Of a stretch of 45,040 bases of DNA, positions 20,561 through 23,117 are shown piece by piece. The DNA is from Candidatus Zixiibacteriota bacterium (GTDB taxonomy: Bacteria; Zixibacteria; MSB-5A5; GN15; FEB-12): the NCBI GenBank assembly GCA_040752815.1, contig JBFMGC010000022.1:1-45040 (forward strand), read 5' to 3'. Every line of letters starts with the position of its first letter. Position 1 is the first letter of the stretch. The notes below the pieces were generated by a model. The model was not told the origin of the DNA. It made no database searches and saw nothing but the letters and a program-made list of their open reading frames with translations. The translations under genes were made by a program, and so were the position numbers.

Positions 20561-21247
20561 ATGGCCAGGACAGACCTCATACCGACCGGACGAACCTCGC
20601 TGGTGAAGCTCGGCGCGACCGAACTCCAAATCCAGACCGAGTACGCCTATCGTCCTGTCCCGCGCATTACCACAACCGTGCTGCGCACCGGACAGGTGAT
20701 CCAGAAAATCGAGATGAATCTTGACCAGCCGATCACCAGCCTCGCGGAGAAAGACCGAATCGAGGTCGCCATGCGGAAACAGCATGCCGAGGTGATCGAT
20801 ATCATTCAGCGCGGCAGTCAGCGTATTCCCATCCCTGTGGAATTACAGGAGAAACCGATCCGTCCCAGCTACAAGCCGAGCCTGGTTGCGTCGGAGCCGA
20901 AACCGTACCCGGAACCAGAGCCCGTGGCTACCATGCTGGAGCGTCTGGAGCGCCTTCCGGGGATACATCGCGTCTATCGCCTCGACAACGGGGGGAATTT
21001 CGAAAACGCCGCAGTGTCGAAAGAATTCCAAAAGGCCTTCAAGGATGTTTTCAAGAACCTGCATGATGTCCTGACTGTGTTTGCCGAGGTGCCGGGGATC
21101 GGCCTGACTCGCGAAAGCGGTGTGATCGAGATCGAGCACGACGCGCTCTATCTGGTTTCTACGGGATTAGAAATCTACATCTTCTGTCTTACCCGCCCCG
21201 ATTATTCTATTGATTACGAAAAGCAACTCCGCGCGATGCTGCGGTAG
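20561..21247 (+). CDS. protein of unknown function downstream of nrdJ
   Basis: I do not recognise this 228-residue protein. It has no signal peptide or membrane segment. The N-terminal half (about 1-100) is beta-rich and charged, with TEYAYRPVPRITTTVLRTGQVIQKIE. A proline-rich linker follows (about 100-125, PKPYPEPEP). The C-terminal domain (about 128-228) has an alternating pattern, LERLPGIHRVYRLDNGG then EHDALYLVSTGLEIYIFC. It is reminiscent of small roadblock/LC7-like regulators, but this is only a resemblance. It lies 51 bases after nrdJ on the same strand and may be co-transcribed. The start is the ATG at 20561, with no clear ribosome site but a hairpin (20530-20551) just upstream. Confidence 0.6.
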   Translation: MARTDLIPTGRTSLVKLGATELQIQTEYAYRPVPRITTTVLRTGQVIQKIEMNLDQPITSLAEKDRIEVAMRKQHAEVIDIIQRGSQRIPIPVELQEKPIRPSYKPSLVASEPKPYPEPEPVATMLERLERLPGIHRVYRLDNGGNFENAAVSKEFQKAFKDVFKNLHDVLTVFAEVPGIGLTRESGVIEIEHDALYLVSTGLEIYIFCLTRPDYSIDYEKQLRAMLR

Positions 21248-21668: not shown

Positions 21669-22319
21669 TCACTTCTTCAGTAGCTTGAATGCGTGTGTCC
21701 AGCGGTTGTGGCTGAGTCCAGGTATGCACCAGAGGATCGCCAGCGGTTCAATCGCACGCGCTGCCTCTACCCTGCCCATGTCTTCGATTTCCCAGCCGAA
21801 AGTACCAAGTATGTTAGTCACTTCCTGCTTTGCGCCGGTGTCGTTGCCGCAGATGAACATGGTCGGTTTGAGGCCGCCGAAGTCGGGATTGACCATCAGC
21901 GGACTGCCTACACAACTGAACGCCTTCACGAAACGCGCCTCCGGGGCCGCCTTCTGCAGCCGCTCCATCAGGGAGTCGTTCATCGGTGTGAAGTACTGAA
22001 GGACACCGTTGACCGGGGTAACCGAGTCAATAGGATTGGTAGCATCGATCACTGTTTTACCCCGCAGGTTTTCGATGCCAACTGACTTGACCGTCGCTTC
22101 GGCCGCGGCTCCCTTGACCGCGAGGACCACTGTCTCTCCGAACCGGGCGGTTTCGGCAAACGTGCCAACCGCTGCCTTTCCGTTCGTCGCTTTTTTCAAA
22201 TCGTCGTACTTATTCCGGCTGCCAGTGCCAATCATGACGTCATGGCCATGTCTAACAAACCCGTTGGCCAGAGACTGCCCGACCATTCCCGATCCAAGAA
22301 TTCCGATTTTCTTGCTCAT
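21669..22319 (-). CDS. NADPH-dependent oxidoreductase of the F420/NADP-reductase family
   Basis: Cytosolic Rossmann-fold protein of 216 residues. The N-terminal dinucleotide-binding motif is KIGILGSGMVGQSLANGF (about 4-21), followed by MIGTGSR at the end of beta-2, a pattern that favours NADP. VVLAVKG and KTVIDATNPID near 65-100 are typical of the F420H2:NADP oxidoreductase-like family (COG2085). Substrate could be F420 or another small molecule; the sequence alone does not decide. GGAG lies 8 bases before the ATG at 22319. It stands alone, convergent with the nrdJ group and downstream of a candidate RNA gene that ends in a terminator before it, so it must have its own promoter. Confidence 0.8.
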   Translation of the reverse strand: MSKKIGILGSGMVGQSLANGFVRHGHDVMIGTGSRNKYDDLKKATNGKAAVGTFAETARFGETVVLAVKGAAAEATVKSVGIENLRGKTVIDATNPIDSVTPVNGVLQYFTPMNDSLMERLQKAAPEARFVKAFSCVGSPLMVNPDFGGLKPTMFICGNDTGAKQEVTNILGTFGWEIEDMGRVEAARAIEPLAILWCIPGLSHNRWTHAFKLLKK

Positions 22320-22401: not shown

Positions 22402-22427
22402 AAAAAAACCACCCCGAAGGGTGGTTT
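22402..22427 (-). terminator. rho-independent terminator of the candidate ncRNA
   Basis: On the minus strand, ACCACCC and GGGTGGT form a 7 bp stem around a TTCG-type loop, followed directly by seven T. It lies upstream of the oxidoreductase gene and faces transcription coming from above 22430. No protein gene on the minus strand ends there, which implies a non-coding transcript. Confidence 0.85.
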
Positions 22428-22632
22428 CAAATCTGGGGGAGAGAGCGACGAATTTGAAAAACCTCCACATACCTTACGGTAAAGGGTTTTTACAGCCACC
22501 TCGCGCATTCTGTTTTCGCTACCGGCAATCCGGCCGGGTCACGGCGTTCACGCGGCGCTGAAGAGACGACCTTCATAAGTGGATTGTTAGAAGTTTTCAA
22601 ATGGCAGCTCTCTCCATATTTTCTTCTCGTCT
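22402..22632 (-). ncRNA. structured RNA, candidate 6S-like RNA
   Basis: Predicted transcript of about 230 bases with its own promoter and terminator and no coding frame. The outer stem is a perfect 9 bp, GGAGAGAGC (22615-22607) with GCTCTCTCC (22446-22438). After a small internal loop comes ATTTGAAAAC (22602-22593) with GTTTTTCAAAT (22462-22452), then TCCAC (22583-22579) with GTGGA (22468-22464). A wide open region follows, with a small CCTT/AAGG hairpin on its 3' side. The apical arm begins CAGC/GCTG and ends in CCGGC/GCCGG with a 6-base loop. The distance from 22615 to 22438 is 178 bases. A long rod with a central bubble, a 3'-side bubble hairpin and a length near 180 matches 6S RNA, the RNA polymerase decoy. 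The assignment rests on hand folding only. Confidence 0.5.
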
Positions 22633-22638
22633 GCAGTT

Positions 22639-22668
22639 AATATACGCAGATTGACAAAACGCAAACAA
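22639..22668 (-). promoter_or_regulatory. promoter of the candidate ncRNA
   Basis: On the minus strand, TTGTTT (22668-22663) and TATATT (22644-22639) are separated by 18 bases, placing the start near 22632. This lies about 17 bases before the outer stem of the predicted RNA. Confidence 0.55.
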
Positions 22669-22682
22669 CTCTTTTTTGGCCG

Positions 22683-22711
22683 TTGCCCAATGTTCACACG
22701 TAGGGTATGTT
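22683..22711 (+). promoter_or_regulatory. promoter of acpS-pyrE
   Basis: TTGCCC (22683-22688) and TATGTT (22706-22711) are spaced by 17 bases. They lie about 30 bases before the acpS start at 22743 and diverge from the ncRNA promoter. Confidence 0.45.
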
Positions 22712-22742
22712 CCGCTCGATTTGGCAACGAAACCCGCGTAAG

Positions 22743-23117
22743 ATGGCTGATTCCATAGGTATCGACATCGCCGATGTAACCCGATTCCAACGGCTTCTGG
22801 ACCAATACGGCCCCCGGCTCATTTCGCGAATTCTCGGGTCGCAGGAACGCGAAGTAATTGCCCGGCGGCATGATCGCGCCGCGTTCCTGGCCGGTCGTTT
22901 TGCTGCCAAAGAGGCGCTTATCAAGGCGCTGGGCAAGTACCTCGCGAATCGGCCGGCGATGTCCAGCCTCGAAGTCCTCGGGGATGACAGCGGCCGCCCG
23001 ACAGTTCATCTTCCGCCGTCACTGTCAACCCAACTCGCTTTCCTTCAGATAGAAATCTCGATCAGTCACGAACAAAGTCATGCCGTCGCTCTGGCGGTGA
23101 TCACGGAGAAACGATGA
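22743..23117 (+). CDS. acpS: holo-[acyl-carrier-protein] synthase
   Basis: 4'-phosphopantetheinyl transferase that moves the phosphopantetheine arm of coenzyme A onto apo-acyl carrier protein, needed for fatty acid synthesis. It has 124 residues, the normal AcpS size. The family motifs are clear: GIDIADVTRF with the metal-binding Asp (D8), and GRFAAKEALIKAL (about 51-63) with the metal-binding Glu (E57). SISHEQSHAVALAV is at the C-terminus. I chose the ATG at 22743 rather than 22707 because GIDI then sits at its normal place near the N-terminus. Its stop overlaps the pyrE start (ATGA), so the two are translationally coupled. Confidence 0.95.
   Translation: MADSIGIDIADVTRFQRLLDQYGPRLISRILGSQEREVIARRHDRAAFLAGRFAAKEALIKALGKYLANRPAMSSLEVLGDDSGRPTVHLPPSLSTQLAFLQIEISISHEQSHAVALAVITEKR

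Follow-up and report, generated by a model that had tools for sequence, protein, structure and literature searches.

At positions 22,402-22,668 of the window, the 45,040-nucleotide stretch of Candidatus Zixiibacteriota DNA analysed as a whole, the minus strand raises two questions, namely whether it carries a small RNA gene and, if so, to which kind of RNA this gene belongs. The original prediction described an unannotated structured RNA resembling 6S RNA, divergent from acpS and possibly a diverged copy of 6S itself.

Conservation, signals and neighbours of the gene

The first DNA search covered 61 genomes of Candidatus Zixiibacteriota from 48 genera, among them that of the window. The RNA was matched by DNA search alone in 55 of them, with one match in each. 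These 55 sequences were aligned to build a covariance model, R1; MAFFT alone misplaced the closing stem P1, and sequences were realigned to covariance models. R1 found exactly one copy in each of 119 of 132 Zixiibacteriota genomes, including 73 of the 78 good ones (completeness of 90% or more, contamination of 5% or less). The good-quality genomes in which R1 found no match, G051, G097, G099 and the nearly complete G124 and G125, may have lost the gene, contain gaps or carry a strongly diverged copy. Folding energy alone provides modest support, with a minimum free energy z-score of -2.7 against dinucleotide shuffles and 1 of 200 shuffles folding equally well. The conservation of the RNA is far beyond chance, and the window holds a real small RNA gene that was formerly uncatalogued.

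Outside the phylum, a second covariance model, R2, matched seven genomes with E values from 2e-10 to 2e-26, and these loci, when read, carry the same motifs as the Zixiibacteriota copies. Searches with the model R3 through three outside phyla were positive in 15/17, 4/4 and 1/1 genomes, the first of these phyla being positive in all of its good genomes (9/9). The genomes G267 and G275, which lie beyond the three phyla searched whole, bear the RNA as well. As judged from these sequence matches, the RNA is present in at least three other phyla besides Zixiibacteriota. A record labelled Calditrichaeota (L082) was not counted as outside and was taken as G084:C52, which belongs to a genome of the same family as the window. 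Pattern matches in records of Nocardioidaceae, Rhodoferax and Maricaulis (L058, L088 and L098) and in a viral contig (L212) were set aside as chance.

A -35-like hexamer, TTGTTT (22663-22668, minus strand), and a -10-like hexamer, TATATT (22639-22644, minus strand), are separated by 18 bases, at the positions originally predicted, and would form the promoter of the gene with a transcription start expected near 22632. In the same way, in the loci of 117 relatives, TTGC, the apparent -35 core, clusters at 30-50 nt before the RNA. An arrangement of GGCAAC, a short gap, AAAAA, a short gap and (G/A)TTGC was also observed 50-80 nt upstream of the RNA, around the -35 region, in many relatives (for instance L011, L013 and L042) and at about 22670-22695 in the window. 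Its GGCAAC and TTGC ends make up an inverted repeat, and the arrangement could be an operator or a UP element plus -35. At the other end, the expected strong terminator is present on the minus strand at 22427-22402, where the sequence AAACCACCC-TTCG-GGGTGGTTTTTTT gives a GGGUGG hairpin followed by seven T (seven U in the RNA). A hairpin-plus-U terminator follows the RNA in 64 of the 117 loci (4% in shuffles), and 35 further loci of the 117 have a U-run directly 3' of the closing stem (14% in shuffles).

The divergent neighbour is acpS (22707-23117, plus strand; PF01648), which was found in 66/117 loci, always on the opposite strand, with pyrE behind it in 53/117. On the other side, a conserved protein of about 220 aa without a Pfam match (20561-21247, plus strand) is convergent with the RNA in 67/117 loci. 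Across Zixiibacteriota this protein sits between a class II ribonucleotide reductase and the RNA. In the window, and only there among the 117 loci, a gene for an F420-dependent NADP oxidoreductase-like protein (21669-22319, minus strand) separates the RNA from its usual convergent neighbour. Elsewhere the surroundings differ: recA is the convergent neighbour in 6 loci of the phylum of G134, and ilvC takes this place in G267, according to a reading of the translated sequence. The position next to acpS is right for 66 loci as a description of context only, the neighbour being recA in another phylum. No conserved gene on the same strand was seen after the RNA among the 117 loci, so that the RNA is a stand-alone gene and not a leader. 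The original claim of an unannotated, stand-alone structured RNA gene is fully supported by conservation, by the terminators and by the covariation that follows.

Fold and covariation

The RNA core modelled by R1-R3 covers 22438-22615 of the minus strand, and its stem-to-stem length is indeed 178 nt. It is composed of a closing stem P1, an internal loop, a helix P2, a central bubble, a short helix P3, a 2 x 9 loop, a helix P4 and an apical domain P5-P8, in this order. P1 pairs GGAGAGAG (22608-22615) with CTCTCTCC (22438-22445), and 8/8 of its pairs are changed on both sides among the relatives. The window sequence has a ninth pair, C22607-G22446, which completes the perfect 9-bp outer stem foreseen between 22615-22607 and 22446-22438. 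In P2, the 'downstream' helix, the 5' strand (22590-22602, with 22602-22594 and 22592-22590 paired) and the 3' strand (22452-22465, with 22452-22460 and 22463-22465 paired) show changes on both sides in 12/12 pairs.

The central bubble is almost symmetric in length: its 5' strand, UAACAAUCCACUUA (22576-22589), has 14 nt in the window and in 84/100 copies, and its 3' strand, which starts CCGUA (22466-22479), has 14-15 nt in 81/100. It is closed by P3, formed by UGAAGG (22570-22575) and CCUUUA (22480-22485, the last A being 22480), in which 99.7% of cells are paired and compensatory changes occur in several lineages. Outside the phylum, P3 takes the forms UGGAGG/CCUCUA and UGAGGG/CCCUUA instead of UGAAGG/CCUUUA, and AUGG/CCAU was found inside the phylum in L026. 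Beyond P3 lies an asymmetric loop in which two nucleotides (22569-22568) face the conserved strand UGUAAAAAC (22486-22494), 9 nt long in 84/100 loci. P4 then joins 22560-22567 to 22495-22502, with 6/7 pairs changed on both sides. The apical domain P5-P8 (22503-22559) rests on covariation and on the loci read, and it displays the conserved loops CGCCGUGACC and GGUAGCGAAAAC. It is absent in L178, whose RNA has 137 nt, and reduced in L175. These natural members with a lost or shortened apical domain (L178 2715-2851 and L175 2686-2845, both on the minus strand) are useful minimal versions of the RNA.

Over 100 aligned copies, compensatory changes were observed in 38/47 modelled pairs. Double-change cells numbered 741, against 237 after shuffling and 70-137 in slid controls, so the covariation in relatives on which the original prediction depended was found. 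G-U pairs are about three times as frequent as A-C (364 GU/UG against 112 AC/CA cells), and together with the U-runs this fixes the minus strand as that of the gene. One detail of the fold first proposed has to be abandoned, a small hairpin (GUAAA/UUUAC) on the 3' side of the open region. The bases assigned to it pair with the 5' strand in P3, and the compensatory changes in P3 break the hairpin, which was rejected on this ground.

Comparison with known RNA families

The 6S family models of Rfam were run on the locus as originally suggested, and RF00013 gave no match to the window at the gathering level. With E up to 10, RF00013 matched neither the RNA region nor the RNA in 20 relatives, and no family of Rfam 15 matches the RNA. 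The only matches in permissive scans, such as those to istR and RNAI, were look-alikes of the terminator hairpin. Conversely, R2 and R3 gave chance-level scores when run unfiltered against E. coli ssrS and 20 genuine 6S loci. The RNA is thus set apart from 6S by the lack of a covariance-model match in either direction, and the idea of a divergent copy of 6S was not borne out by these searches.

With RF00013, 6S was found in 0/61 Zixiibacteriota genomes. A search of 386 genomes likewise gave no match in Zixiibacteriota or in the RNA-bearing genomes outside, and 138 other genomes were positive. A more sensitive search revealed no credible match in 22 RNA-bearing genomes and recovered both positive controls (2/2); the two matches at E <= 1 in RNA-bearing genomes were short and weak. 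At a background rate of about 138/254, seven outside genomes all without a 6S match would be expected by chance with a probability of about 0.4%, a figure to be read with phyla and not genomes as the independent units. RF00013 was also without a match in 7-10 of 14 control genomes, and the absence of matches is confounded both by phylogeny and by what this model is able to find. The window's own genome (G000) and most relatives have class A RNase P and small SRP RNA at other loci, and most relatives also have tmRNA at another locus. A full tmRNA above the cut-off was not found in G000, which may be due to an assembly gap or to a permuted form. As separate genes, RNase P, SRP RNA and tmRNA were ruled out as the identity of the RNA, which leaves 6S as the housekeeping RNA for which no match is found.

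The likeness to 6S lies in the architecture. Both are RNAs of about 180 nt from a single stand-alone gene, with a closing stem, an internal loop, a downstream helix and a long imperfect apical arm. The RF00013 consensus has its parts in the same order, with a bubble of 16 x 13 nt against 14 x 14-15 here, and the 3' bubble strand starts with ACCU in the 6S consensus and with (A)CCGU in the RNA here. The original wording 'resembling 6S RNA' accordingly holds for part order, length, the symmetric 14-nt bubble and the absence of an RF00013 6S alongside the RNA, but not for membership in the family model. In contrast to 6S, the RNA has a constant 6-bp P3 beside the bubble, followed by the 2 x 9 loop, and the sequence of its apical domain is conserved.

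Two further families, 6S-Flavo (RF01685) and Bacteroidales-1 (RF01693), the 6S-type RNAs of Bacteroidota, would be expected to have a similar role, and neither matched the RNA and its 20 relatives with E up to 10. Ms1 is another rod with a bubble, about 300 nt long and with an additional hairpin at either end, which binds core polymerase and is found lineage-wide in Actinobacteria, where 6S was not found (PMC9130861). Measured against that description, the RNA here is set apart by its 178 nt, its terminal P1 and the different taxa. Literature searches that combined Zixibacteria with 6S RNA or with noncoding RNA turned up no paper.

The central bubble and the function of the RNA

On balance, we think it probable that this new family of about 180-nt, single-copy RNAs works like 6S, as a decoy of RNA polymerase. 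The RNA probably stands in for 6S in these bacteria, because its shape is like that of an opened promoter and the standard models find no 6S there. All steps involving the polymerase we infer as follows. The rod, with a central bubble of about 14 nt between two helices, would imitate an open promoter, P1-P2 acting as the downstream duplex and P3-P8 as the upstream duplex. RNA polymerase with its housekeeping sigma factor would bind the RNA and be kept from DNA promoters. When nucleotides return, the polymerase would start a short product RNA at a conserved C, open P2 and be released. A dispensable apical domain fits with B. subtilis 6S-1, of which derivatives of 78-82 nt still work in vitro (PMC8876501), since the domain appears dispensable here too (L178, 137 nt). 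Nevertheless, the sequence of the apical arm is more conserved than a pure promoter mimic would need, which counts against a 6S-like reading, as do the constancy of P3 with its nearly invariant G-U pair and the 2 x 9 loop, which has no counterpart in the 6S consensus.

The product RNA of 6S is copied from the 5' bubble strand, and the 3' bubble strand contains a -10-like region (PMC8876501). When the last P3 base on the 3' strand of the RNA here (A22480) is set at -11, the sequence along this strand is U(-12) A(-11) N N N U(-7), with U(-7) at 22476. A(-11) is present in 117/117 loci, including 17/17 outside the phylum, and U(-7) in 97/100 inside and 13/17 outside. Outside the phylum, the three bases between them vary freely, and from -11 on along the 3' strand only these two are well conserved. 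In TATAAT, the positions of the -11 A and the -7 T are the best conserved. The 3' bubble strand is therefore proposed as the non-template, -10-like strand, in which UANNNU would be the -10 mimic. On the other strand, the near-invariant C of UAACA at 22586 (99/100 inside and 14/17 outside, when positions are numbered from the P2 side) is put forward as the template base for +1. With +1 on this C, the product RNA would begin with G, and the bubble register predicts GUUAGAAGUUUUCAA... (GUUAGA...), which corresponds to 22586-22600 on the plus strand. The -11/-7/+1 register is a prediction and not a proof, as it was found by inspection after the data had been seen.

Whether the polymerase is the partner at all is the point on which the main alternative differs. 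A new housekeeping or regulatory RNA with another partner, such as a protein scaffold or sponge, a ribonucleoprotein component or an Ms1-like core binder, is possible, if not what we would expect; its resemblance to 6S would then be only that of any bulged rod. The internal loops and apical arm are strongly conserved (UGMGC, CGCCGUGACC, AGCGAAAGCAAAA, UAAAAAC), which suggests a specific binding surface, there is no cross-match with 6S, and Ms1 is a precedent for a 6S-looking RNA that binds the core enzyme instead (PMC9130861). However, another partner would leave the bubble size, the -11/-7/+1 pattern and the absent RF00013 6S unexplained, and some members lack the apical domain. Rather unlikely is a highly diverged true homologue of 6S, below the reach of covariance models, a claim of descent that overlaps with the polymerase decoy. 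It would account for a layout equal to the RF00013 consensus and for the absence of RF00013 matches from RNA-bearing genomes. In one 6S locus, L180, the model moreover aligns on the right strand and in register, bubble over bubble and (A)CCGU over ACCU. This is a hint only, L180 being one of 20 loci with 11.7 bits and an E of 0.57 over the set, and no phylum with intermediate forms was found. That the family is unrelated by descent to 6S and Ms1 is quite conceivable, at slightly less than even chances, and it would then be either an independent open-promoter mimic, forming a third polymerase-binding class, or an RNA with a new housekeeping function.

Two other readings fare worse. A regulatory RNA that base-pairs with mRNAs would suit a stand-alone gene whose RNA ends in an intrinsic terminator and has some conserved single-stranded stretches, but it is improbable given a whole fold conserved phylum-wide, very few unpaired stretches and one copy everywhere. 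A cis-acting leader or attenuator of a neighbour such as acpS is very improbable: acpS is close in 66/117 loci, yet invariably on the opposite strand, as is the convergent neighbour, the neighbours change to recA or ilvC elsewhere, and the RNA ends in its own terminator. Cis-regulation of acpS itself was rejected on account of orientation and changing context.

The RNA family extends over a whole candidate phylum and reaches into parts of at least three further phyla, and their genomes lack its annotation because Rfam 15 does not contain the family; the alignments made here suffice for a new family model. Under the polymerase-decoy reading, the conserved bubble leads to exact predictions, namely a start at C22586, a product GUUAGA... 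and an essential role for A(-11) and U(-7). According to PMC11077062, the structured RNAs known to bind bacterial RNA polymerase are of two kinds only, 6S and Ms1. If the RNA described here is a third kind or a 6S diverged beyond detection, it would become testable which bacteria truly lack 6S-type control.
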